DNA of 53,515 bases, from NCBI RefSeq assembly GCF_000743525.1, contig NZ_JQGK01000020.1, forward strand, positions 1 through 53,515, given 5' to 3'. Origin of the DNA: Sulfurospirillum sp. SCADC (GTDB lineage: Bacteria > Campylobacterota > Campylobacteria > Campylobacterales > Sulfurospirillaceae). The notes under the pieces are model-generated. The model ran no database searches. It worked only from the letters and a program-made list of their open reading frames with translations, and was not told the DNA's origin. The translations under genes were made by a program, and so were the position numbers. Of the stretch, positions 1,698 to 33,826 are shown in pieces. How positions within the stretch are numbered: position 1 is the first letter of the stretch; each line of letters begins with the position of its first letter.

Positions 1698-1725
1698 AGA
1701 GGCTTTACATGTAAAGCCTCTTTTC
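1698..1725 (+). terminator. Rho-independent terminator built on the TTACATGTAA palindrome
   Basis: A perfect 24-bp palindrome at 1698-1721 (AGAGGC arms around TTTACATGTAAA) runs into a T tract just after the dat stop. It also lies just beyond the stop of the convergent gene at 1725, so it could serve both strands. Confidence 0.8.
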
Positions 1726-22753: not shown

Positions 22754-23035
22754 ATGAAACCCTACATGAGCATAATTACCCTAGGAGTTAGTGATATGGC
22801 GCAGTCTATTGATTTTTATCACAAAGGACTCGGATTTCCTAGGCTTGAGCCTTATGAAGAGAAGATTGCTTTCTTTACGCTCAAAGGAACGTGGCTTGCG
22901 CTTTATGAGAAAAAAGCACGGCAGTTGTCGTTAAAATCGCATCGTTGTAGATGGCTAAAATGGCTTCCAAATCAGTTTCCGTGGCAAAACGAATCATTGT
23001 TTTTACCCTTCTTTAAAGGCAATCTATCCTGCTAA
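22754..23035 (+). pseudogene. Truncated VOC (glyoxalase-like) gene
   Basis: Residues 1-55 are a normal VOC-family N-terminus (MKPYMSIITLGVSDMAQSID, then FYHKGLGFP and GTWLALYEKKA). After that the translation is unrelated, because the DNA continues as the antisense of a GNAT gene start. The second half of the VOC domain, with its metal ligands, is missing, so the protein is unlikely to function. A palindrome (22733-22742) lies upstream. Confidence 0.75.
22881..22997 (-). pseudogene. 5' fragment of a GNAT (phosphinothricin-type) acetyltransferase gene
   Basis: A 38-codon frame. The first ~27 residues, MIRFATETDLEAILAIYNDA then ILTTTAV, match the start of PAT/YwnH-type acetyltransferases. The sequence then runs into the antisense of the truncated VOC gene and soon stops. 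The acetyl-CoA-binding core is missing. The junction is at about 22,915-22,925. Confidence 0.7.
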
Positions 23036-23386
23036 TTGACAGGCAAAACAGTTGCTTTGATCTTTACATGTAAAGCACGCAGGTGCGACTCGGTTGATGG
23101 AATCGTAGATGAATTTCTTCCACAATTTATCGACAGGTTTGAGCCCAGCGAGTTCAGGGAAGTGGCATTTCATGTATTTGCCCATCTGAACGCGGTTTTT
23201 AAACCCCATCGCTTCGTAGAGGTGGTTCATTTTCAGTGACATGGCTGCGATGTGTGGGGCGATGACGTATTTTGAGTAGCGATTTTTGGCATAACCTTGC
23301 AAAAAGATCATCACTTCGCGTTCAAGCTTCGTCATCTCTAGTTGACTGTATCGGCTCGTTAGGCTCTCTTCTATGGCGGTGGTCAT
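23024..23386 (-). CDS. nifQ: NifQ-like molybdenum-handling protein
   Basis: 120 residues. The pattern LYEAMGFKNRVQMGKYMKCH then FPEL and LWKKFIYD follows NifQ, which carries a molybdenum-iron-sulfur cluster and donates molybdenum for FeMo-co. The family ends with C-x4-C-x2-C-x5-C; here the first Cys is replaced (RVAPAC), the other three are present (CFTCKDQSNC), and an extra Cys follows (CFAC). The FTCK part is encoded by a TTACATGTAA palindrome (23064-23073). The protein is shorter than typical NifQ. It overlaps rpoN by 4 bp, so the two are coupled. Family assignment is by motif only. Confidence 0.7.
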   Translation of the reverse strand: MTTAIEESLTSRYSQLEMTKLEREVMIFLQGYAKNRYSKYVIAPHIAAMSLKMNHLYEAMGFKNRVQMGKYMKCHFPELAGLKPVDKLWKKFIYDSINRVAPACFTCKDQSNCFACQLAG

Positions 23387-24609
23387 GCTTGTACCTTATA
23401 GATTTTTTTGCGCTCTTTGGATGATGCGACGTTCATCAATTTGCGGTATTTGGTGATGGTGCGTCTGACCATCTTGATGTTAAAGCGCTTTTCAATGCGC
23501 TCCAAAAGGTCATCATCGGTGAGCGGTTCACTTTTGTCTTCGTATTCGATCTGTTGATTGATAAAATTCTTAATCTCAGACGAAGAGAGCTCTTTGGTCG
23601 CGACGGCATTGGTAAAAAACGATTTTAGGGGGAAAATGCCCTGCTTGGATTCAATGTATTTGTTTGAAATCGCCCGTGAAATGGTCGATTCTGCAAACGA
23701 GAGCTCTTCGGCAAGCGTGCTCATATTTAGAGGCTTCAGCTCACCGCCCACAAAGAAAGAGAGCTGTCTCTCCACGACTAAAAGCACAATTTTATACAGC
23801 GTTGTTTTGCGAAGTTCCAAAAGATTGACGATGTCGCGCGCCTCTTTGAGCTTCTCTTTGATGTTTTCACTCTTGCTTGAAAAAGGATCGGTAATCAGAA
23901 TATCAGGATAATAGTCGTTGTTAATGCGCAACCGAATGTCATCATCGACTTCCACGTAAAAATCGGGGATGATCTGTTTGGGTGTCGCTTGATACTCAAT
24001 CGCTGGAGGATTGGCAAATTTTTTGATGATCGCTTTGGCTTCTTCAAATCGCCCGTGTCTGGAAAATTTATCGACCTTTGCCATCTGATCGATCATCTTA
24101 AGAACCAAGTTGTAGAGCTCATCGTCGATGTCATCACTGAGGGCGTCGAGTTGAAAGACAAACGATTCGTGGCTCTCACGTGAACCGATACCATAAGGCT
24201 CTAACTTGGAGAAGCGTTGGCGAATGCGCTCAACATACTCGCTGTACACACCACAGGTCACAGCGATCGCTTCTATATCGCCATCAAAATAGCCCTCTTC
24301 GTTGATGTCACAGAGAATTTCATGCGCTACTTTTTGTGAAATGGGTGTGGGAAAGAGAGGTGGTACAATTTGTTCGATGATTTTTTCATGCAACGACTCA
24401 CTTCCAAGTACCAACTCTTCGACAATGCCATGGCTTGAACCTAGGTTTTGCTCAAAGGGACGCTTGACTTCTAAAAAAGGGTTTTCGTACGACAACGTCT
24501 CTAGGTGCGTACTTAACTCTTGAAGAGGTAGCTGTAACAATGGGAGCCAAAGCTTCAAAGAGAGGTTTAAACTCTGCTTTTGCTTGAATTCTAGGTTGAT
24601 ACTTCTCAT
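23383..24609 (-). CDS. rpoN: RNA polymerase sigma-54 factor
   Basis: 408 residues: glutamine/leucine-rich region I (EFKQKQSLNLSLKLWLPLLQ), core-binding region, helix-turn-helix (LAEELSFAESTISRAISNKY) and the C-terminal RpoN box (VRRTITKYRKL), which contacts the -24 element. It directs transcription from -24/-12 promoters with an activator such as NifA or a flagellar regulator. Four such promoters are seen in front of nif units in this window. It is cotranscribed with nifQ, which suggests a nif-dedicated copy. The ribosome site is poor, and a 13-bp inverted repeat lies just upstream of the start. Confidence 0.9.
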   Translation of the reverse strand: MRSINLEFKQKQSLNLSLKLWLPLLQLPLQELSTHLETLSYENPFLEVKRPFEQNLGSSHGIVEELVLGSESLHEKIIEQIVPPLFPTPISQKVAHEILCDINEEGYFDGDIEAIAVTCGVYSEYVERIRQRFSKLEPYGIGSRESHESFVFQLDALSDDIDDELYNLVLKMIDQMAKVDKFSRHGRFEEAKAIIKKFANPPAIEYQATPKQIIPDFYVEVDDDIRLRINNDYYPDILITDPFSSKSENIKEKLKEARDIVNLLELRKTTLYKIVLLVVERQLSFFVGGELKPLNMSTLAEELSFAESTISRAISNKYIESKQGIFPLKSFFTNAVATKELSSSEIKNFINQQIEYEDKSEPLTDDDLLERIEKRFNIKMVRRTITKYRKLMNVASSKERKKIYKVQA

Positions 24610-24615
24610 GTATAA

Positions 24616-24650
24616 ATTATGCCCAAAAATGGATTGATTTTGGGCATAAT
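24616..24650 (-). promoter_or_regulatory. Perfect inverted repeat in the rpoN leader
   Basis: ATTATGCCCAAAA and TTTTGGGCATAAT (24616-24628 and 24638-24650) with a 9-nt loop, ending seven bases from the rpoN start codon. It could be an operator for a dimeric regulator or a leader hairpin that limits translation. Confidence 0.6.
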
Positions 24651-24679
24651 AGGTGATTATTTTTTACACATAGGAAGAA

Positions 24680-24730
24680 GAGTTTTCTGAAAAACTCCTC
24701 GGGATAGAGCTCCTTGAACAGGCGTTCAAG
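24680..24730. terminator. Two hairpins between the nif operon end and rpoN
   Basis: GAGTTTT/AAAACTC (24680-24697) and CTTGAAC/GTTCAAG (24713-24730), each with a 4-nt loop, lie downstream of the ferredoxin stop at 24742. They may end the nifX operon transcript before rpoN. T tracts are weak. Confidence 0.5.
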
Positions 24731-24741
24731 TGAGGGAAATC

Positions 24742-25038
24742 TTAGTATTTAATACGAACAACACCGTTTGGCTTGTCGATTTTCATTTGACACGCAAGGC
24801 GTGAATTTTCTGAACATGTGCCCGCACAAACCTCTTTAAGAACTTTAAACTCTTTTTCATTTTTTGGAGATAAAAACTCCATACCTTGTACGATTTCAAC
24901 CACACAGGTTCCACATTGACCATCACGACAGCCAAAAGGGAGTGCACTACCACTCGCCTCAACGACATCTTGAATGGTTGCACCCGGTTTTACATTGATT
25001 GCTAAAAAATCATTGATAATTTCTACTCTTGTTGTCAT
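24742..25038 (-). CDS. [2Fe-2S] ferredoxin, nif-associated
   Basis: 98 residues of plant/bacterial [2Fe-2S] type with the ligand set C-x4-C-x2-C (FGCRDGQCGTC) and a fourth Cys in SRLACQM. It is probably an electron carrier to nitrogenase or to cofactor assembly. It is the last gene of the nifX-to-ferredoxin operon, 10 bp after a related protein that has lost most ligands. AAAGGA precedes the ATG. Confidence 0.85.
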   Translation of the reverse strand: MTTRVEIINDFLAINVKPGATIQDVVEASGSALPFGCRDGQCGTCVVEIVQGMEFLSPKNEKEFKVLKEVCAGTCSENSRLACQMKIDKPNGVVRIKY

Positions 25039-25048
25039 ATTTTATCCT

Positions 25049-25387
25049 TTACTTTTTAAATGGTTTAATCAAAACATCGCCCTTGATCATCATCATTGAA
25101 GCAATGCGAACTTTTGGGCTAACCGTAAACTGTTGGCAAATATCAGCATCTTCTTGAGAAATGGCACCAAGTTTCACAAGCTCATCAAGCTCTTCATCTT
25201 CCATGTAACTTGTTGGCTCTTCTTCGCTGATACTCTCAACACTCACTAAACATGTAGAATGGTCATTACTATCAAACGTGATAGGAATCCCCTTCTCTTT
25301 TGCTAGACGAACAACAGGTTCACCTATTTTGGCATCATAGATACCATCTTTTTCTTCATCAAAATGCATAAAGATTACTTTCGCCAT
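25049..25387 (-). CDS. Ferredoxin-like protein lacking cluster ligands
   Basis: 112 residues that follow the [2Fe-2S] ferredoxin fold in outline (AKVIFMHFDEEKDGIYDAKI, EPVVRLAKEKGIPI, STCLVSVES, GDVLIKP). At the positions of C-x4-C-x2-C only the last Cys remains; the first two align with Phe and His (FDSNDHSTC). A later Cys (DADICQQ) may match the fourth. A normal cluster is unlikely. It could be a structural or carrier protein for nitrogenase maturation. GGAGG precedes the start. The family assignment is inference. Confidence 0.6.
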   Translation of the reverse strand: MAKVIFMHFDEEKDGIYDAKIGEPVVRLAKEKGIPITFDSNDHSTCLVSVESISEEEPTSYMEDEELDELVKLGAISQEDADICQQFTVSPKVRIASMMMIKGDVLIKPFKK

Positions 25388-25424
25388 GACTTTTCCTCCC
25401 TACTAAGATTTTTTTATTATGGTG

Positions 25425-25787
25425 TTATTGCTTATAATGTTCTATCATCCATTCTGTCTCTTCCGCCTCAAGATCACGGTAAGGTTCCATCGCTTCAAGC
25501 TCATGTTCCCGACATCCAATGACTTCAATAACCGCTTCAGCATCTAAAAAATGGACTTCATACACACGAATGACTTGTAAAAACTCACCCATGCCACGAA
25601 TGTAACCGACTGAGCCTTTTTTAATCATCACGTCGCCAATTTTGAGATACGGATAGGTACCATCGTTCTTGACATCTTCCAAAAGTTTGACTTTCTGACC
25701 GAGAAAAAACTTCGCTTTGGCTTCGTCTTTACCTGAAAGTTTTGCCATCACATTGTTGTGTAAAACAACGTCTTCGCTAGCAGGCAC
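25425..25787 (-). CDS. nifZ: Nitrogenase maturation protein NifZ
   Basis: 120 residues with the NifZ core: FFLGQKVKLLEDVKNDGTYP, KKGSVGYIRGMGEFLQ, VYEVHF and VIGCREHELE. NifZ helps form the second P-cluster of the MoFe protein. The start chosen is GTG 25787, because AAGGAGG lies five bases before it; an ATG at 25814 has no such site. It overlaps nifW by 11 bp and is part of the nifX operon. Confidence 0.85.
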   Translation of the reverse strand: MPASEDVVLHNNVMAKLSGKDEAKAKFFLGQKVKLLEDVKNDGTYPYLKIGDVMIKKGSVGYIRGMGEFLQVIRVYEVHFLDAEAVIEVIGCREHELEAMEPYRDLEAEETEWMIEHYKQ

Positions 25788-26109
25788 AGTTTCCTCCTTC
25801 CGATGCAGTAGCACACGCTAAACATCCTTTGGCTTTGCCATCTTCGAGCATTCCCCACACCTCAGCAGCACTAGGAGCATGCCCATGTTTATAGTCCATA
25901 TAAACGCGAATCAAGGCAAATTTTAAAAAATCCATCAAGTATTTTTCATCGCCATTAAAATTTTCAAACCCTTTTTTAATGAGACTTCCATACTCTTTCA
26001 TAATATGAAAACGCTTGACTTCCACAATATGTTTATCATAGTCAACGCCAAAAAATTCAAAAAAATCTTCTGCATCTTTCAGTTCATAATATCGCTCAAG
26101 CGTTCTCAT
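25777..26109 (-). CDS. nifW: Nitrogenase-stabilising protein NifW
   Basis: 110 residues. The N-terminus LERYYELKDAEDFFEFFGVD then VKRFHIMKEY is the NifW hallmark. NifW binds the MoFe protein and is thought to aid its maturation or oxygen protection. The C-terminus has an unusual Cys-rich tail (GCLACATASEGGNCAC). AAGGA precedes the ATG at 26109; a longer frame upstream has no ribosome site. It lies in the nifX operon. Confidence 0.85.
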   Translation of the reverse strand: MRTLERYYELKDAEDFFEFFGVDYDKHIVEVKRFHIMKEYGSLIKKGFENFNGDEKYLMDFLKFALIRVYMDYKHGHAPSAAEVWGMLEDGKAKGCLACATASEGGNCAC

Positions 26110-26164
26110 GTTATTTCCTTTATCCTTAATAGTTTGTATACTAAAGGGTTGTATGTACAACCCT

Positions 26165-26680
26165 TTATATCTCGCCTTTTAACTGCTCAATCCAGTTTTC
26201 AATGCGTTCACTGGTTTTCTCTTTTTCGTTGATGTTATCGATGGCTAAACCACAGAGTTTGTCACCCACTTCGGCTAAAGAGGCTGCGTAGGTGTAACCC
26301 TCTTTGTCCACAAAACCGATGATTTTTGCACCTGCTTTGGTAAAAATTTGATTGAATTTACCAAGGGCTGAACAAAAATGTTCGCCATGCGTTTTGCTAT
26401 CCCCTGCGCCAAAAAACGCAACTTTTTTACCTGCAAAGCTGATATTCTCAGAGGTGATCTCAAACAGTGCATCAACCCAACTAAAATGCACATCGCCTTG
26501 TCCCCATGTAGAGGTTCCTAAAAACAGCACATCGTAGTTTTCAAATTGTTCGACACTGTCAAAGTCATCTTCCATCAAAATACAATCGTCATCTTCTACT
26601 TCAAAAGCCTCTTTTAAAGCCTCTGCTACCAACGTTGTATTGCCGCCCGCACTTGCGTAAAATATACCAACCTTTGCCAT
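26165..26680 (-). CDS. nifF: Flavodoxin, nitrogenase electron donor type
   Basis: 171 residues. The FMN phosphate loop is YASAGGNTTLVAE, with the flavin-stacking region LGTSTWGQGDVHFSW and FGAGDSKTHGEHFCSALG. The size and insertion fit long-chain NifF-type flavodoxins that reduce the nitrogenase Fe protein. It sits in the nifX operon between the DUF269 and nifW genes. AGGA precedes the ATG. Confidence 0.85.
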   Translation of the reverse strand: MAKVGIFYASAGGNTTLVAEALKEAFEVEDDDCILMEDDFDSVEQFENYDVLFLGTSTWGQGDVHFSWVDALFEITSENISFAGKKVAFFGAGDSKTHGEHFCSALGKFNQIFTKAGAKIIGFVDKEGYTYAASLAEVGDKLCGLAIDNINEKEKTSERIENWIEQLKGEI

Positions 26681-26692
26681 GTTCTATCCTGA

Positions 26693-27124
26693 TTATTTTT
26701 TATACATTTCGTAAATTTCGATGGCTTCTTTTAACATCTTGCCACCCTCTTTGATGAGATCAGCATAGGTTCTAAAACTGTAACGATGCGCATCTTTAAA
26801 GAATTTGTTGGTGATGACAATCTTCTCTGCTAAAACCACCGCACGTCCAAAACCTTCGTGACTCATCTCCATAACGACTGAGCACATAATGCCCAGCTTG
26901 AGCTCAAACGCCAATGCAATCGATTGAAAAATCAGACGAATATCTTTAATCTGCATCTCATCAATATCTGCAATAATCGGAACGTTTTTAAGTTGCTCTT
27001 TGGTCTTAATGTATTTATCACTCAACACCTCTTCATCGCTCTTTTTCGCCCAAGTCCCAAACTGATCCAGAGCTCTAATTTGCGAGGTGAGGGTTTCGAT
27101 GAACAACTTTTCAAGCTCATTCAT
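26693..27124 (-). CDS. NifX-associated protein (DUF269)
   Basis: 143 residues, matching the NifX-associated family by its length, the opening EKLFIETLTSQIRALDQFGT and the ending FRTYADLIKEGGKMLKEAIE. The family accompanies nifX in many diazotrophs; its biochemical role is not settled. It lies 4 bp from nifX. AGAGGA precedes the ATG. Confidence 0.8.
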   Translation of the reverse strand: MNELEKLFIETLTSQIRALDQFGTWAKKSDEEVLSDKYIKTKEQLKNVPIIADIDEMQIKDIRLIFQSIALAFELKLGIMCSVVMEMSHEGFGRAVVLAEKIVITNKFFKDAHRYSFRTYADLIKEGGKMLKEAIEIYEMYKK

Positions 27125-27128
27125 AGCA

Positions 27129-27485
27129 TTATCCTCTTGCTTCTAAGATTTTTTTGATAAACGGTGGAGGATTGGTTGCGATCATCGTTTGGAGTTTATT
27201 AAGCTCGGTTTCGATGTTAACAACCTCTTTGTATTTGATAGGAAATATTTTGCTATTGACGACTTTTGCCGCAGCGGCAGGTCCAATCTCGACACAGTAC
27301 ATAATGTCAACATGTTCATTCTGTAACAGCTCAACTCGACCTTCAGTTCGCTCTTCGCCTGTTGGAACGACTCCTGAGAGTGCAAACCCCTCAGCATTCA
27401 CGTCATACACGGCAAATTGCTCTCCAGAGCCAAAATGGGCATCAATATTCTTGAGATCGTTTGTAAAAAACGCAACCTTGACCAT
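27129..27485 (-). CDS. nifX: FeMo-co precursor carrier NifX
   Basis: 118 residues of the NifX/NafY/NifB-C family: VKVAFFTNDLKNIDAHFGSG, AVYDVNAEGF and CVEIGPAAAAKVV, the last being the cofactor-binding segment. NifX binds the NifB cofactor and the [VK] cluster between NifB and NifEN. It is the first gene of a seven-gene operon, with a -24/-12 promoter (27524-27537) and AGGAGG upstream. Confidence 0.9.
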   Translation of the reverse strand: MVKVAFFTNDLKNIDAHFGSGEQFAVYDVNAEGFALSGVVPTGEERTEGRVELLQNEHVDIMYCVEIGPAAAAKVVNSKIFPIKYKEVVNIETELNKLQTMIATNPPPFIKKILEARG

Positions 27486-27523
27486 CGTTGTATCCTCCTA
27501 TCGTTAACGTTGTTCATTCCTTT

Positions 27524-27537
27524 ACAAGAAGTGTTCC
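27524..27537 (-). promoter_or_regulatory. Sigma-54 promoter of the nifX operon
   Basis: GGAACACTTCTTGT on the minus strand. The GG-N10-GT spacing fits -24/-12 except that the final C is T. It differs from the fdx-operon site at 35221 at two positions. The transcript would start about 27 bases before nifX. Confidence 0.6.
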
Positions 27538-27649
27538 GTTGAGTGTTCTGGCTTCCTTCTGAGTATTTCCAACTCTATTTTATGCTACGATTGTTACAGG
27601 TGAATTACATTAATTAGTCGACGATGATCGCCTGAGGCTCTTTACAATA

Positions 27650-27690
27650 TTGCTTTACATGTAAGAAAAAAATCCTTACATGTAAAGCAA
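27650..27690. repeat. Paired TTACATGTAA palindromes forming a 16-bp-arm hairpin
   Basis: Arms TTGCTTTACATGTAAG and CTTACATGTAAAGCAA with a 9-nt A-rich loop. It lies between the divergent nifX operon and the MscS-like gene. A near-copy with the same spacer pattern is on the other side of the MscS-like gene (29620-29650). Confidence 0.85.
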
Positions 27691-27718
27691 CAACACTACT
27701 TCTTAAACCCATTGAGGG

Positions 27719-27724
27719 TATAAT
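27719..27724 (+). promoter_or_regulatory. -10 box of the MscS-like gene
   Basis: A perfect TATAAT 37 bases before the ATG at 27761. No clear -35 is visible, which is usual in Campylobacterota. Confidence 0.5.
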
Positions 27725-27760
27725 ATCTTTTATTTTATTACCTCATTTTGGAGTCAATTT

Positions 27761-29614
27761 ATGGCGTTAAACCCCTTTAAATCGTTGATGGTTCTAGCGT
27801 TTTTACTTTCAATCTCTGCTTGTGCCGACGATCAAAACAGCTCTTTAGTCAATGCGGACAAAACTGTCTATGTCAATCTGCTCAAAAACATCAAAGACTC
27901 ACCTCAAACGAACGATGAATTTGCTTTACAAAAAGTGCTTCTTGAAAAGCTGATCAACACGCAGCCTTCAACCATCACGCAAATGCCTATCAACACACCT
28001 ACGAACATTGACGAATACAGCAATCTTTTTAATCGCTATAACGATGATTCGCTTAAAAAAATCGCTCTTGATAAAAAAATCAACTCGATTGCATTGAAAA
28101 TCAAAACACTCGAAAAAGAGATTAAAAGTTTGGATGTGAACAGCACGTCTATTCGTACTCTGCAACTTCAAAATGCGCTTTATACAAAATCACTGCAAGA
28201 ATTTAAAGATCAAACTGAAGCGTTAGCACAAGAGATGCTCTCCATTGAAAAGATGTTAACCGAATCCTTGAAAAACATCACCTTTGATCCTGAAAATCAG
28301 GCCAAAAAAACAGCCACGAATCGTGAAGAGGTTTTAAAACTACGCACAACGCTCGATAATTTTTTAGTGAAAAAAGAGCGTTTTGAACTCTTAGGAGATA
28401 ACCGCGATCGAGGGGTTTCTGCTACGGCGATCAGCGCTAAAGAAGATGCCTACACCAAAGCATTGAGAGAGACGATTGGCTCTTTATTTTTAGAGTTTTC
28501 CAATGCCTTAAAATCCAAAAATGAAAAGGCATTTGCTTTGGAGAAAAGCATCCTTGATGAGGTCGCACTCTTAGATAAAACAGATATGATTAACGAATCG
28601 ATGGCGTCACTTTTGCATGCAATGGAGAAAAAGTATTTTGGTACGCTCGATACCATCGCAGGTTCCACAACCCAAGAGTTCAAAAATATTGTAAAATCGA
28701 CATGGGGCATACTTACTGAGCCTATTTTTACAACGAATGGTACACCGATCACAACGTTGAAACTGATCTTAGCGCTCTTTATTTTTCTCATTGGCGTTTT
28801 TGGTGGCGGGTTTTATAAAACCAGCATTAAAAAAATTGCGAACAATAGCAAATCGATCAATTTAGCAACCCGTACGATTTTAGCCAATATTGGCTACTAC
28901 GTCATTCTCTTAGCCGCTTTTTTTATCGCCTTAAATGTCTTAGGCATCGACCTCTCTTCGATTGCACTTGTAGCAGGTGCCCTTTCGGTGGGTATCGGTT
29001 TTGGTCTGCAAAACATCGTCTCCAATCTTGTCTCTGGCATCATTTTGATGTTTGAGCGCAGCATTAAAATTGGTGATTTTGTGGAGCTCTCAGGAACCGT
29101 GCATGGTCATGTCACCGATATTCGTATGCGCTCCACAACCCTTAATACCAACGGAAATATCGATGTCATCGTTCCCAATCGCAACTTTATTGAAAACAAT
29201 GTGATTAACTGGACGATGCACGATAAAATAAAACGTTTTGATATTCCTTTTGGTGTTGCCTATGGCACGAAACCTGAACATGTGATTGCGGTGATTAAAG
29301 AAGCCGTTGTTAACAGTGGGTATAGCGATATTATCGAGGCTCATGATAAATTCACCAACGTCATTATGTCGGGCATGGGAAGCAGCAGTGTTGATTTTAT
29401 CCTGCAAGTATGGATTCATGGTGAAGAAATTTTGGCACCGAGTAAAACCATGTCCAGATTTTTGATTATTATCTACAACACGCTCAACGCACATGGCATC
29501 GAAATTCCCTTTCAACAACACGATGTGCATATTAAAAGTATTGATAAAGAGAGTGCTTTGAGCCTTACGAAACCCCAAAGCGTTGAAAAAAAAGTGGACA
29601 CAGCCAATACGTAA
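27761..29614 (+). CDS. MscS-family mechanosensitive channel
   Basis: 617 residues: signal sequence with a possible lipobox (ISAC), a long periplasmic coiled region (~30-320), membrane helices (~335-430) and the MscS core with the pore helix VAGALSVGIGFGLQNIVSNL and the beta domain (ERSIKIGDFVEL, VIVPNRNFIENNVINW). It opens under membrane tension to release solutes. GGAG precedes the ATG. It sits inside the nif region and is flanked on both sides by paired palindromes, so it may be an inserted gene. Confidence 0.85.
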   Translation: MALNPFKSLMVLAFLLSISACADDQNSSLVNADKTVYVNLLKNIKDSPQTNDEFALQKVLLEKLINTQPSTITQMPINTPTNIDEYSNLFNRYNDDSLKKIALDKKINSIALKIKTLEKEIKSLDVNSTSIRTLQLQNALYTKSLQEFKDQTEALAQEMLSIEKMLTESLKNITFDPENQAKKTATNREEVLKLRTTLDNFLVKKERFELLGDNRDRGVSATAISAKEDAYTKALRETIGSLFLEFSNALKSKNEKAFALEKSILDEVALLDKTDMINESMASLLHAMEKKYFGTLDTIAGSTTQEFKNIVKSTWGILTEPIFTTNGTPITTLKLILALFIFLIGVFGGGFYKTSIKKIANNSKSINLATRTILANIGYYVILLAAFFIALNVLGIDLSSIALVAGALSVGIGFGLQNIVSNLVSGIILMFERSIKIGDFVELSGTVHGHVTDIRMRSTTLNTNGNIDVIVPNRNFIENNVINWTMHDKIKRFDIPFGVAYGTKPEHVIAVIKEAVVNSGYSDIIEAHDKFTNVIMSGMGSSSVDFILQVWIHGEEILAPSKTMSRFLIIIYNTLNAHGIEIPFQQHDVHIKSIDKESALSLTKPQSVEKKVDTANT

Positions 29615-29619
29615 CCGCA

Positions 29620-29650
29620 TTTACATGTAAGAAAAATCCTTACATGTAAA
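29620..29650. terminator. Paired palindromes as bidirectional terminator
   Basis: Arms TTTACATGTAAG and CTTACATGTAAA with a 7-nt loop (AAAAATC), between convergent genes ending at 29614 and 29666. The spacer is like that of the 27650-27690 pair. Confidence 0.7.
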
Positions 29651-29665
29651 GAGTGGAAATACCTA

Positions 29666-30601
29666 TTAAGCTCTTACCCACTGCGCGATCTGTGCAATGT
29701 CCTCAGGCGTGGTTTGACAACATCCCCCAATGACGCGCGCCCCTTTTTGATACCACGTATACGCCATCTTGCCATACGATGAACTTTTTGAAAGTCCATC
29801 CCACGTTTTGGTGAGCGCATTGTAGGTCGATCCGCCATTGGGGTAAACGATGATCGGCTTTGAAGAAACCGCTTTGATCTCTTCGATGAGTGATTCGATG
29901 AACTCGGGAGCGGTGCAGTTGATGCCAATCGCGATGATCTGTTTTTGCGTTTCTAAAAACTGCGCGCACTCACGAATACTCTCGCCGCTGTTGATATGCT
30001 CTCCATCTTTAGCGCTAAAACTCACCCACGCACACATCGTTGAAAATGTCTCTAAGAGTTTGCAAAGCGCTCGTACTTCGATCAAACAAGGCATCGTTTC
30101 GCACGCCAAAAGATCGGGCTTGGCTTCGATGAGTGTCGCCAGTCGTTTACGGTGAAACTCCATCAACGCTTCCACACTCAGCCCATAATTACCCCGAAAC
30201 TCTGAACCATCAGCAAGATACGCCCCATACGGTCCCACCGAAGCAGCGACCAAAGGCTTGTGTCGTTTGGCATGATTTTTGGTTTCGCTCCAAAACGCAT
30301 CACGTACATTTTGAGCGATGGTGATCGAAGACTGAATCAGCGCTTTAGCTTCTGCTTCGCTCATCCCACGCTTCATAAACCCCTCATAGGTTGCTTGGTA
30401 ACTCGCCGTCGTAATGCAATCACTGCCAGCTTTGAGGTAATCCAAATGCACTTCCGCAATCGCTTCAGGCTTTTCCATCAGAAACTTTGCCGACCACAGA
30501 GAGTCGTTGATGTCGTAGCCTTTGCGCTCAAGCTCCGTGCCAAACGCTCCATCGATGATGAGTACTTTTTGCTTGCTTAAAATGATTTCAATGGGATTCA
30601 T
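29666..30601 (-). CDS. mmuM: Homocysteine S-methyltransferase
   Basis: 311 residues of the zinc-dependent homocysteine methyltransferase family: IDGAFGTELERKGYDIN, the zinc Cys in IGINCTAPEF and the Cys pair in GGCCQTTPEDI. It makes methionine from homocysteine and a methyl donor such as S-methylmethionine. GAGG precedes the ATG at 30601; a longer frame adds five residues without a ribosome site. It lies between nif operons, but a nif role is not implied. Confidence 0.85.
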   Translation of the reverse strand: MNPIEIILSKQKVLIIDGAFGTELERKGYDINDSLWSAKFLMEKPEAIAEVHLDYLKAGSDCITTASYQATYEGFMKRGMSEAEAKALIQSSITIAQNVRDAFWSETKNHAKRHKPLVAASVGPYGAYLADGSEFRGNYGLSVEALMEFHRKRLATLIEAKPDLLACETMPCLIEVRALCKLLETFSTMCAWVSFSAKDGEHINSGESIRECAQFLETQKQIIAIGINCTAPEFIESLIEEIKAVSSKPIIVYPNGGSTYNALTKTWDGLSKSSSYGKMAYTWYQKGARVIGGCCQTTPEDIAQIAQWVRA

Positions 30602-30637
30602 ACGTTTTTTCCTCAAAAAATTTAGGATATATCATAC

Positions 30638-30898
30638 TTAGTACGCACTCTGCCGATGCTTAACATCCACAATAAAAACCATCACCTTCTCCTGTTCAAC
30701 ACTATAAAAAAGCCTATAATTGCCAAGTCTATAGCGATAATACCCCTCAAACTCGCCTTTGAGTTTTTTGATGTTGGTGCCAAAAAAAGGATTTTCCCTG
30801 AGTTGTGGATAGACGATGGTTTTGATTTTGAGGTAGAGCTTCGCATCCAGTGTTGCTTTTACTTTCTCAAACGTCTTTGTCTCTGCGATGCTAAACAA
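30638..30898 (-). CDS. RelE/ParE-family toxin
   Basis: 86 residues from a TTG start that overlaps the antitoxin stop by 8 bp. The core FEGYYRYRLGNYRLFYSVE and the ending VDVKHRQSAY are typical of RelE-like toxins, which cleave mRNA at the ribosome or act on gyrase. A longer in-frame start lies inside the antitoxin gene and gives an atypical N-terminus. It is paired with the ribbon-helix-helix gene upstream. Confidence 0.75.
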   Translation of the reverse strand: MFSIAETKTFEKVKATLDAKLYLKIKTIVYPQLRENPFFGTNIKKLKGEFEGYYRYRLGNYRLFYSVEQEKVMVFIVDVKHRQSAY

Positions 30899-31127
30899 TC
30901 GTAAACTCGTTGTTTTTGATGTCTTCCATGCCTTGCTTGAGGTTTTCAACCAAGTTTGCATCGTTTAGTATCTCTGCCATTTCGCTGTTATCGACGTACT
31001 GTGCGGATGTGAGGTACTGCATGGTTGCAAACTCGATGAAATTAGAGATATTGCGTTTTTGCCCTTGCGCAGCGAGTTGAATGATATTGTAAACGCTATC
31101 ATCCACTCTCATCGTGACTGTTTTCAT
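30891..31127 (-). CDS. Ribbon-helix-helix antitoxin
   Basis: 78 residues: an N-terminal RHH DNA-binding domain (MKTVTMRVDDSVYNIIQLAA, KRNISNFIEFA) and an acidic C-terminal segment that would wrap the toxin (ENLKQGMEDIKNNEF). It neutralises the RelE-like toxin and represses the pair. AAGGG precedes the ATG. The pair lies between nifN and mmuM. Confidence 0.8.
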   Translation of the reverse strand: MKTVTMRVDDSVYNIIQLAAQGQKRNISNFIEFATMQYLTSAQYVDNSEMAEILNDANLVENLKQGMEDIKNNEFTIV

Positions 31128-31202
31128 TTTGTGCCCTTTGTATGCTATGTGAATTTATTGTATTCAATTTTATTCACATTGTCAAGAGAATTGACGTTTA
31201 CA

Positions 31203-32483
31203 TCAGTGATAGGCTAAAAGATTATTGACCTCACACAAAAAGGCGCAACTGCCTTCGTACAAAATGTTGTAACGAAGCCCGATGCCGACTTGCTCATAGT
31301 TTGGAAATCCTCGAATGAGAAGCGCTTTATGATGTTTATGCGCTAAACGCTCGCCGTGGTAGTTGGCGATGAGCATATCCATCTCGGGGAGTCGCTTCTC
31401 CACCTCTTCAAAATCGCCGATTTGCATTTTACATGTAAAGGCTTCTTGGATTTCACTGCGCTGTGCGATGTACGCTTCACACGTACTTCCAGCTTCTCTA
31501 AGCGCTTTGGAAATGGCATAGGCACTATCGGGCTCATCGGCGATGAGTATTTTTGCTTTTCCAAGGGTAAAATGGGTATCTAAAAGCACATCTTGCAGAC
31601 GCGCGCGCCATCGTTTGACGACACTGGGAACACTTTTGCACTGTAAAAATTCAAAGACTTTGGCATAAAAATCATCCGTGGCTTCTAAGCCGATGAGGCT
31701 ATCAAAATGCAGGTGCGTGCTTTGAGGGAATTTTTCATAAAAAAGTTCACCGCATTTTTTGACCGAATGCCCAATGGTGATGACAGCTCCCGCGTCGCCT
31801 AGTTTTTCGATGTCAGAAACGCTAATGCCACCGCTACTAAGAGCGCCTTGTTTGACGCCCAAATGCCCATCGAGTGAATCGCTGAGATCAGGGAGTGCAA
31901 AAACGACCAAGTCCAAACATTCCAGCGCTTCTTTGAGTTTTTCCACTTCGATGGGACTAAAATTGACATTGGGAATGAGCAGAACTTTGTCTTTTCTTAC
32001 CTGCGTGGTGGGCTCGATCAGTTGGGTAATGATGTTTTGAACACTCAAACTCCATCCGCTCTCAAGCCCACCTTCAAAATCGGGCGTATGCACATAGACC
32101 ATCTTTTGCTTCTCTTTTAAAAGCAGCGTTGCGCCTTTGATGTCATCGCCTTTGGTCTCCGTCATGCCTGTGGTAAAAAGCCCCACCAAATCGGGCGTTA
32201 CTTTTTTGGTGATGTTCTCCACCGCTTCGGAGATGCCTTTATCGCCACCATCGATGACCGCGGTTATGTCATTCACCGCGGTGGTTTGAATGGCGATAGG
32301 ATCGTTAAAATGACGAGTAAAAAGCACCTTGGTAAACGAAGCACACCCTTGCGCGCCGTGCATCAAAGGCATACAGTTTTTAATGCCCAAAAATGCGAGT
32401 GTCGCGCCCATCGGCTGAGAGAGCTTGAGAGGGTTTACATGTAAAGGTTTTAGGCTCGTTGCTTTGAGCTCTTTTAAATTCAT
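31203..32483 (-). CDS. nifN: FeMo-co scaffold subunit NifN
   Basis: 426 residues of the nitrogenase component 1 family. The opening NPLKLSQPMGATLAFLGI then CMPLMHGAQGCASFTKVLFT is characteristic of NifN. With NifE it forms the scaffold on which the NifB cofactor matures to FeMo-co. The start is the ATG overlapping the nifE stop (ATGA). Two palindromes lie in the gene: 32435-32444 encodes LHV just before NPLK, and 31429-31438 encodes FTCK near residue 350. Confidence 0.9.
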   Translation of the reverse strand: MNLKELKATSLKPLHVNPLKLSQPMGATLAFLGIKNCMPLMHGAQGCASFTKVLFTRHFNDPIAIQTTAVNDITAVIDGGDKGISEAVENITKKVTPDLVGLFTTGMTETKGDDIKGATLLLKEKQKMVYVHTPDFEGGLESGWSLSVQNIITQLIEPTTQVRKDKVLLIPNVNFSPIEVEKLKEALECLDLVVFALPDLSDSLDGHLGVKQGALSSGGISVSDIEKLGDAGAVITIGHSVKKCGELFYEKFPQSTHLHFDSLIGLEATDDFYAKVFEFLQCKSVPSVVKRWRARLQDVLLDTHFTLGKAKILIADEPDSAYAISKALREAGSTCEAYIAQRSEIQEAFTCKMQIGDFEEVEKRLPEMDMLIANYHGERLAHKHHKALLIRGFPNYEQVGIGLRYNILYEGSCAFLCEVNNLLAYH

Positions 32484-33826
32484 ACTAGCTCCCATGGTGC
32501 AGCCTTTCCAACCAGTTTAAAGACAGGATTTGCCAGTGCAGAACAGACATCACTCGCCAAATTTTCAAGCCCTCCGTACGCGCCATAACTTACTTTTTTT
32601 TCTTGATTGACATCGACAAACGCAATGCGTTTTTTGATCGCGGTGTAAAGACTTCGCCCACCCGCCAACAAAATGTCTACATGGTGCTCATCAATGAGTT
32701 TGGGCTGTTCAACACCCGGGTTTTTAAAGACGATGGGCACATATTCACTCGCAATGGCGACGTCTTCTTCCGTGGCTTTTTGCACACAGGTTGCGACCAC
32801 TTCGATGCCGATGTCTTGAAGCGCTGAGGCAATCGACCACGACTTGTTGCCGCCCGTGTTGAGAATCGCTTTTTTGCCTTTGAGCATAAGAAAGTACGGC
32901 TTCAAACGCTCCGCCAACTTCGCCTCTTCTTCGGCGATAATCGCTTCAGCTTTAGCGCTGAGTTCCGCATCACCAAACGCATTGACGATGGAGCGAATCG
33001 CATTGGACGTGTCACGTTTTCCGTAAAAGGAGACGCTCACATAAGGGATGTTGTAGCGTTCTTGCATTTTACGACACAAAGTGACCAAGGATTTTGCACA
33101 GACGATGACATTCAGCTTTGCGGTGTGTGCCATTTGTATCTGTTCAATTCTGCCATCGCCTGAGAGCGAAGAGATGACTTTAATGCCAATGCGTTCAAGT
33201 ATGGGCTTGTACTGCCACATATCGCCTGTCACGTTATAATCACCGATCAAGTTAATACCAAAGGGATGAATGCTTTCAGGCTCACGCGTACCCACAAGCG
33301 CGTCCAGCACCGCTTCACCTGCAAGGCGTGACCCTAAGTTTTTACTGCCCACGAATCCTGGGGCATGCACGGGCACGATGGGAATGTGAAACAACTCTTC
33401 CGCGGTTTTACATGTAAAGTCGATGTTATCCCCAATCATCGCTGTGACACAGGTTTCGTAGACAAAAATCGCCTTAGGGTTTTTGTGCTCCACGATGTAC
33501 GCTAAAGCATCTGCCAGCTTCTTGTCACCACCAAAAATGATGTCTTGGGTCGAAACATTCGTGCAATAGCCCAGTGGCGTGTTGTTTTCACCTTCATAGC
33601 TTGTAAGCGTAGCTCTGGTTTCCCATGAAGCGCCAAGACAAGTGTCGGGACCATGCACCAAGTGCACAGCATCCGCATAAGGAAAGAGTGATATTTGCGC
33701 TCCCTCAAACGCACACCCTCCGCTCGTCGCTCCAGGTTTCGGTTTATCACAGCTCGCTTTTTTGGTTTTGTTATGAGAACAAGCACTCTCGTTTAACAAA
33801 TCCTTGATCAGTTTTCTATTTACCAT
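32480..33826 (-). CDS. nifE: FeMo-co scaffold subunit NifE
   Basis: 448 residues. Hallmarks are LLNESACSHNKTKK, GGCAFEGAQISLFPYADAVH, GPDTCLG and FVYETCVTAMIGDNI; the Cys residues hold the scaffold's [4Fe-4S] cluster. It pairs with NifN. A palindrome (33408-33417) encodes FTCK right after GDNID. No Shine-Dalgarno sequence is visible, and a -24/-12 element (33839-33852) would place the transcript start almost on the start codon. Confidence 0.9.
   Translation of the reverse strand: MVNRKLIKDLLNESACSHNKTKKASCDKPKPGATSGGCAFEGAQISLFPYADAVHLVHGPDTCLGASWETRATLTSYEGENNTPLGYCTNVSTQDIIFGGDKKLADALAYIVEHKNPKAIFVYETCVTAMIGDNIDFTCKTAEELFHIPIVPVHAPGFVGSKNLGSRLAGEAVLDALVGTREPESIHPFGINLIGDYNVTGDMWQYKPILERIGIKVISSLSGDGRIEQIQMAHTAKLNVIVCAKSLVTLCRKMQERYNIPYVSVSFYGKRDTSNAIRSIVNAFGDAELSAKAEAIIAEEEAKLAERLKPYFLMLKGKKAILNTGGNKSWSIASALQDIGIEVVATCVQKATEEDVAIASEYVPIVFKNPGVEQPKLIDEHHVDILLAGGRSLYTAIKKRIAFVDVNQEKKVSYGAYGGLENLASDVCSALANPVFKLVGKAAPWELV

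Follow-up and report, generated by a model that had tools for sequence, protein, structure and literature searches.

Highly iterated palindromes (HIPs) have so far been a cyanobacterial puzzle, the question being why a genome should keep so many copies of one palindrome. HIP1 and the alternate HIPs of cyanobacteria are short perfect palindromes that reach very high copy number and associate with methyltransferases, are gained and lost sporadically among relatives, and are abundant in some genomes that lack the enzyme (Elhai 2015, PMC4390886). Here, a palindrome that by analogy behaves like a HIP, and would be a new variant outside the cyanobacteria, is described from Sulfurospirillum sp. SCADC, where one of its copies lies within nifQ. 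The window, that is the whole stretch of DNA analysed, comprises 53,515 nucleotides of contig NZ_JQGK01000020.1. The classical NifQ motif is C-x4-C-x2-C-x5-C. A NifQ would bind a Mo-Fe-S cluster and supply Mo for FeMo-co, the three-Cys core presumably ligating the Fe-S portion of that cluster. Very probably two independent things meet at one codon of this gene, an ordinary NifQ of its phylum and a single HIP-like copy. The genes concerned are as follows:

23024..23386, minus strand: nifQ, short Campylobacterota form, 120 aa, PF04891, adjoining rpoN and other nif genes
23383..24609, minus strand: rpoN (sigma-54), upstream neighbour of nifQ, with Pfam Sigma54 domains
31203..32495, minus strand: nitrogenase-component-type gene (NifE/NifN-like), PF00148, with two in-frame 10-mer copies, at 31429 and 32435, one per reading frame

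The gene had been taken for nifQ in a preliminary description made from the sequence, and this identification stands because of the profile match of PF04891 to the 120-aa ORF (54.9 bits against a cut-off of 27, E 1.8e-14) and the nif gene context. The match covers profile positions 59-159 of 159, and the neighbourhood at 23383-32495 encodes, according to Pfam, rpoN, a 2Fe-2S ferredoxin, NifZ, a flavodoxin, a DUF269 protein, and FeMo-co-binding-type and nitrogenase-component-type proteins. The C-terminal end of the ORF reads ...RVAPACFTCKDQSNCFACQLAG. No sequence relative of the protein was found in the PDB (best E 1.1), Foldseek against the PDB gave nothing better than E 4.6, and the NCBIfam search gave no match. 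In AlphaFold models of this protein and of a Pseudomonadota NifQ the helices are good, the C-terminus of the former is weak (pLDDT about 70, then 52), and the ligand geometry of the window and Pseudomonadota proteins is not comparable because the models are too uncertain at the cysteine end. On the opposite strand, a short glyoxalase-type ORF (22754-23035) shares 12 bases with the 3′ end of nifQ; its Pfam match spans only the first half of the profile, and it is probably a truncated gene.

The cysteines of the window NifQ are arranged as C104-x2-C107-x5-C113-x2-C116, within the sequence C104-FT-C107-KDQSN-C113-FA-C116, and the palindrome covers the second of them:

23075..23077, minus strand: codon of C104, which opens the three-Cys core (invariant in a 69-row alignment)
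23066..23068, minus strand: codon of C107 (TGT), second core Cys, within the palindrome (invariant in the same alignment)
23048..23050, minus strand: codon of C113, third core Cys (likewise invariant)
23039..23041, minus strand: codon of C116, fourth Cys, present in 70/70 Campylobacterota and 0/10 Pseudomonadota (best 80 of 519)
23063..23074, minus strand: palindrome TTTACATGTAAA, codons F105-T106-C107-K108, with its 10-mer core at 23064-23073; the 10-mer is intact in all of the 18/22 genus nifQ genes that encode FTCK

A GTDB genome scan with a mixed alignment returned 519 relative-encoding candidates, the best 80 of which consist of 70 Campylobacterota and 10 Pseudomonadota loci, phylum being assigned from record title and likeness. 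Among these best 80 of 519, the core C-x2-C-x5-C is present in 80/80, a Cys three residues after the core in every Campylobacterota locus and no Pseudomonadota one, and a Cys five residues before the core in 0/70 Campylobacterota versus 10/10 Pseudomonadota; the full classical motif occurs neither in the window NifQ nor in any of the 70. The new Cys that had been noticed in CFAC is C116, the residue found throughout these 70 loci, and the rearranged ligand set proposed at the same time holds as a description but is not peculiar to the window NifQ, since all 70 share it. Replacement of the first Cys by Arg is correct as an ungapped count, which places R99 five residues before C104, but in the alignment the upstream Cys is gone with a deletion of about 8 residues and the position itself is variable, the 70 loci (best 80 of 519) having K 27, E 16, R 8, A 7, L 5 and S 3 times and four other residues once each. 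Only H55, R65, W89, K90, P102, C104, C107 and C113 (window numbering) are invariant across both groups in the 69-row alignment.

A second set of 27 family loci and 28 further loci of the phylum, which overlaps in genomes with the 70-locus set, has the Campylobacterota pattern in 54/55 sequences on alignment. The one exception, locus L032 (genome G157), is a full-length Pseudomonadota-type NifQ (160.6 bits) with a Cys at -5 and none at +3, and is likely a case of horizontal transfer. The Cys set, which has no connection with the palindrome, is a NifQ variant of the whole phylum, and the window protein is an unremarkable example of the form that the family takes there. Campylobacterota and Pseudomonadota NifQ belong to the same Pfam family (PF04891) and have the same invariant residues and a nif gene neighbourhood in common; the Campylobacterota form differs in being shorter (usually 99-131 aa, whereas the majority of Pseudomonadota proteins have about 145-275), in having no N-terminal part, in the deletion that takes the upstream Cys, and in the extra Cys three residues past the core. 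Two nifQ copies lie on one contig in genome G035 (L005 and L031) and likewise in another genome (L110 and L111).

The window NifQ has the invariant core C104, C107 and C113 and a fourth Cys that follows the core (C116), as in Campylobacterota generally, where in Pseudomonadota the fourth precedes it. The two great NifQ groups have only three Cys in common, and the position of the fourth on opposite sides of the core helps to separate the residues needed for the Fe-S part from those that may contact molybdenum; metal ligation by the core is itself something we infer. Even in Pseudomonadota C-x4-C-x2-C-x5-C is not universal, because the upstream Cys is present in 7/8 plasmid NifQ proteins (8 taken from 124 plasmid records with a match) and missing from one. 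A plasmid of Azospirillum sp. B510 carries an annotated NifQ (L060) with the three-Cys core and neither alternative fourth Cys.

At the DNA level, the 10-mer TTACATGTAA occupies 23064-23073 inside a 14-bp palindrome CTTTACATGTAAAG (23062-23075), and the in-frame 12-mer TTT ACA TGT AAA encodes F105-T106-C107-K108; coordinates and translation agree with the initial reading that the palindrome is in frame, spells FTCK and contributes a Cys of C-x2-C-x5-C. The family search took in 44 genomes, 26 of them with NifQ, including 24 of the window's genus, 22 with NifQ (Sulfurospirillum diekertiae is among the named members of the group). FTCK is encoded by 18/22 genus nifQ genes, the others having FSCK (G020, G028), FRCK (G017) and ATCK (G034); these four lack the motif at the site, and all four Cys are present in 22/22. 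The 10-mer is intact in 18/18 of the FTCK genes and the 12-mer in 17/18, the remaining one using AAG for Lys, while flanking synonymous codons vary freely. The C107 codon is TGT in every motif-bearing nifQ and TGT or TGC in the others. Outside the genus, FTCK is found in 0/61 NifQ loci, with Phe at that place in 1/61 and Lys in 5/61, and several genes (for example L031, L039, L042 and L078) have ACA TGT at the same place. In the genus, F and K next to the putative ligand Cys are the usual residues, and they coincide with the motif; motif-less FSCK and FRCK keep both, and ATCK keeps K alone. Their persistence where the motif is broken (FSCK, FRCK) means that they are tolerated without it, and does not by itself show the order of events. 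Probably a HIP copy settled on a pre-existing Thr-Cys codon pair (ACA TGT) of nifQ, and completion to TTT ACA TGT AAA would then have fixed Phe and Lys beside the Cys, an order that we infer.

The copy in nifQ would be one of about 1,300 of a 10-bp HIP kept at the DNA level. Copies in the window number 31 exact and 5 with one mismatch, against 2.26 expected in all, and the abundance far above chance extends genome-wide, the 2.66-Mb genome holding 1,309 copies of the 10-mer versus 1 of the pattern read backwards, and 657 of the 12-mer versus 0 of its backward pattern. Of 227 occurrences of TACATGTA, 213 fall in TTACATGTAA, the unit being 10 bp; exact copies outnumber all thirty one-mismatch variants together by 225 to 49, and CATG outside the 10-mer shows no excess (1437 against 1436 expected from base composition). 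Across 18 motif-rich stretches and the window, 99 exact copies are intergenic, 125 intragenic and 1 lies across a boundary, fractions that are approximate because genes were called by a simple longest-ORF rule. The density is 1 per 386 bp between genes versus 1 per 3,002 bp within them in the same stretches, with its peak between convergent genes, where 3,551 bp hold 27 copies. One intergenic copy of this kind is:

1705..1714, no strand assigned: intergenic copy flanked by convergent genes and embedded in a perfect palindrome of 22 bp

Coding copies fall into the LHV frame (59), the FTCK frame (64) and a stop-containing frame (2). A hairpin terminator was considered as a general reading of the palindrome and is rejected, since the palindromic arms, which extend per side by a mean of 1.09 between genes versus 0.98 within, are no longer between genes than within.

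Conservation beyond the protein was assessed on 20-kb stretches around nifQ from 19 family genomes (20 stretches) together with the window. Where the amino acids agree in motif-rich pairs, the 10-mer is exact in 82/82 comparisons in the LHV frame and 134/134 in the FTCK frame (216/216 in total), whereas control three-codon runs with the same amino acids in the same genes are identical in 46125/187635 (24.6%); the 216 are pairwise comparisons over 50 query sites (21 LHV, 29 FTCK) and are non-independent because many of these sites are orthologous, the nifQ site alone supplying a large share of the FTCK counts. Further motif-rich comparisons have differing amino acids (19 LHV, 52 FTCK) or gaps (6 and 6). 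Intermediate-motif genomes keep the 10-mer exact in 4/28 LHV and 42/42 FTCK comparisons, and two motif-poor genomes in 0/1 and 1/1, most sites there being changed in the protein too. Both copies in the nitrogenase-component-type gene, at 31429 and 32435, are intact across the compared motif-rich genomes where the amino acids agree. Of the 34 FTCK instances in the window plus 17 stretches, several being the same nifQ site in different genomes, 33 are spelled as the 12-mer and the remaining one still holds the 10-mer; the expectation from codon usage outside motifs is 12.7%. TTACATGTAA is preserved at the DNA level by Sulfurospirillum genomes, beyond what the protein constrains.

Several features set the palindrome apart from its cyanobacterial counterparts. 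It is an AT-rich 10-mer with a CATG centre, where HIP1 is a GC-rich 8-mer; it is 7.8-fold denser between genes than within; and its one-mismatch copies (15, 4, 17, 8 and 5 by distance from the end, outermost first, n=49) have no clear bias to the outermost bases of the kind reported for HIP1 (PMC4390886). The hosts differ as well: the palindrome is found in Sulfurospirillum and in a few genomes from one other family of the order rather than in cyanobacteria. Copies of the 12-mer number 14-792 in the 24 genus genomes and 0-8 in the 10 genomes of a related genus, g2. Among 248 genomes drawn from the order, of which 21 are in the family, 222/227 outside the family have 0-10 copies of the 10-mer; the five bearers all belong to one family (G156 with 367, G168 with 340, G221 with 96, G201 with 48 and G234 with 31), and the abundance in G156 and G168 is an apparent independent gain, sampled relatives mostly having 0-10. 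No alternate palindrome stood out in the 20-kb stretch of motif-poor G020. Neither the palindrome in these bacteria nor the Campylobacterota Cys variant was found described in the literature searched, most subscription papers lying outside its coverage.

Of the two methyltransferase classes surveyed in 48 chosen genomes, D12 (PF02086) includes one clade of about 325 aa whose presence in the genus goes with that of the motif; enzymes of the beta class (PF01555) show no such pattern. When 65 chosen genomes were searched with one member, an orthologue (62-100% identity; in two pieces in G023) was found in 15/24 genus genomes, which hold 258-792 copies of the 12-mer versus 14-412 in the 9 without it, two of which carry a 54-56% relative instead. 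A rank test of copy number against the orthologue gives p = 1.4e-4 with kinship uncorrected. On a NifQ+RpoN tree of 22 genus genomes (G014 and G030, which have no NifQ, being left out), the genomes without the orthologue fall in four clades, each with lower copy number. Divergent genus members have the solitary methyltransferase gene between the same neighbours, which from their sequence we take to be a transglutaminase-like gene on one side and a CheY-like or histidine-kinase gene on the other; in six low-copy genomes (G020, G028, G021, G025, G032 and G033) the CheY-like and transglutaminase-like neighbours are kept and the methyltransferase gene is missing from between them. In these six, the genomes inspected for it, a small lysine-rich ORF occupies the gap. 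Copy number tracks the solitary D12 adenine methyltransferase at its conserved locus, with exceptions: G024 and G029 keep 271 and 412 copies without the orthologue, although in G029 and G030 its absence may merely reflect an incomplete genome.

The enzyme resembles known solitary D12 methyltransferases (Dam-like) in its PF02086 domain and DPPY motif and in that no partner nuclease was recognised among those adjoining genes that were read; it differs in its fixed position beside the genes named above. It may be akin to the CATG-specific M.HpyI/M.NlaIII. No PDB relative was found, NCBIfam gave no useful name, and plasmid homologues are annotated only as DNA adenine methylases. Beside this D12 locus lies an ORF (L241 2-673, minus strand; G000 contig 5) that may be similar to the beginning of a Cas9-type protein. 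In its published form (PMC4390886) the GmeC repair model cannot hold here, because the associated enzyme is a D12 adenine methyltransferase.

The preliminary description had offered, as one of two readings, that motif drift and cluster site evolved together. In that case the Cys set would have been imposed by the palindrome, or would itself have drawn the palindrome in to serve nif regulation or NifQ chemistry. This is highly improbable. Such a history would fit a motif that covers C107, is kept in 18/22 genus nifQ genes and is flanked by genus-typical F and K, but the Cys set occurs in 70/70 Campylobacterota loci, only 8 of which have the 12-mer and 9 the 10-mer at the site, all genus members (best 80 of 519); the four genus members without the motif at the site have an unchanged set; and motif copies lie in many genes and between genes throughout the genome. 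The link between motif and Cys set fails because relatives share the set, most of them without the DNA motif, and what survives of the proposal is the coincidence of F and K with the motif, FTCK being absent from all 61 loci outside the genus. It is a minority possibility that the phylum's NifQ uses the three invariant Cys alone, C116 and the upstream Cys of Pseudomonadota being non-ligands and no ligand having been rearranged. A [3Fe-4S] centre needs three Cys, C104, C107 and C113 are the only ones invariant in both groups, and the Azospirillum sp. B510 protein has the core without either fourth Cys; conservation of the fourth Cys within each group (C116 in 70/70, the upstream Cys in 10/10, best 80 of 519) nevertheless points to a function in each.

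As to what keeps the palindrome intact, by analogy with cyanobacterial HIP1 a process linked to the solitary D12 adenine methyltransferase at its conserved chromosomal locus is most likely, and the chance that the enzyme is itself the cause of maintenance is put a little short of even. The link is incomplete because two motif-rich genomes, G035 (283 copies) and G168 (340 of the 10-mer; no PF02086 and no PF01555 matches), have no detectable homologue, and because 51-55% homologues occur in 7/10 g2 genomes that have only 0-8 copies. The palindrome might instead be the binding site of an abundant dimeric DNA-binding protein, whether a nucleoid or chromosome-organising protein or a termination factor at gene ends, with binding the selected property and the methyltransferase a passenger, a reading with a substantial minority claim. 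The 10-bp unit and the lack of CATG excess outside it suit such a protein at least as well as a methylase site, and it would accommodate the crowding between genes (1 per 386 bp versus 1 per 3,002 bp, peaking between convergent genes), the preponderance of exact copies (225 versus 49) and the motif-rich genomes without methyltransferase; on the other side, copy number is lower in each of the four clades without the orthologue, the arms (1.09 versus 0.98 per side) argue against an RNA hairpin terminator, and no candidate protein was identified. Returning to the methyltransferase, we put forward tentatively that TTACATGTAA is a Campylobacterota HIP tied to the solitary D12 enzyme, inherited in Sulfurospirillum and lost or replaced about four times, and that upkeep of the palindrome may be strong enough to write amino acids, so that nearly every Phe-Thr-Cys-Lys in these proteomes, including the surroundings of the NifQ cluster Cys, would be due to the DNA motif. 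Why such palindromes are kept becomes a testable question now that an unrelated second lineage offers a different base composition and a candidate enzyme, together with close relatives that have it or lack it.

Two intergenic pairs of the palindrome in the window, at 27655-27685 and 29621-29649, have their copies about 20 bp apart around a similar short AT-rich spacer, GAAAAATC, and look as if they were a recurring two-copy element.
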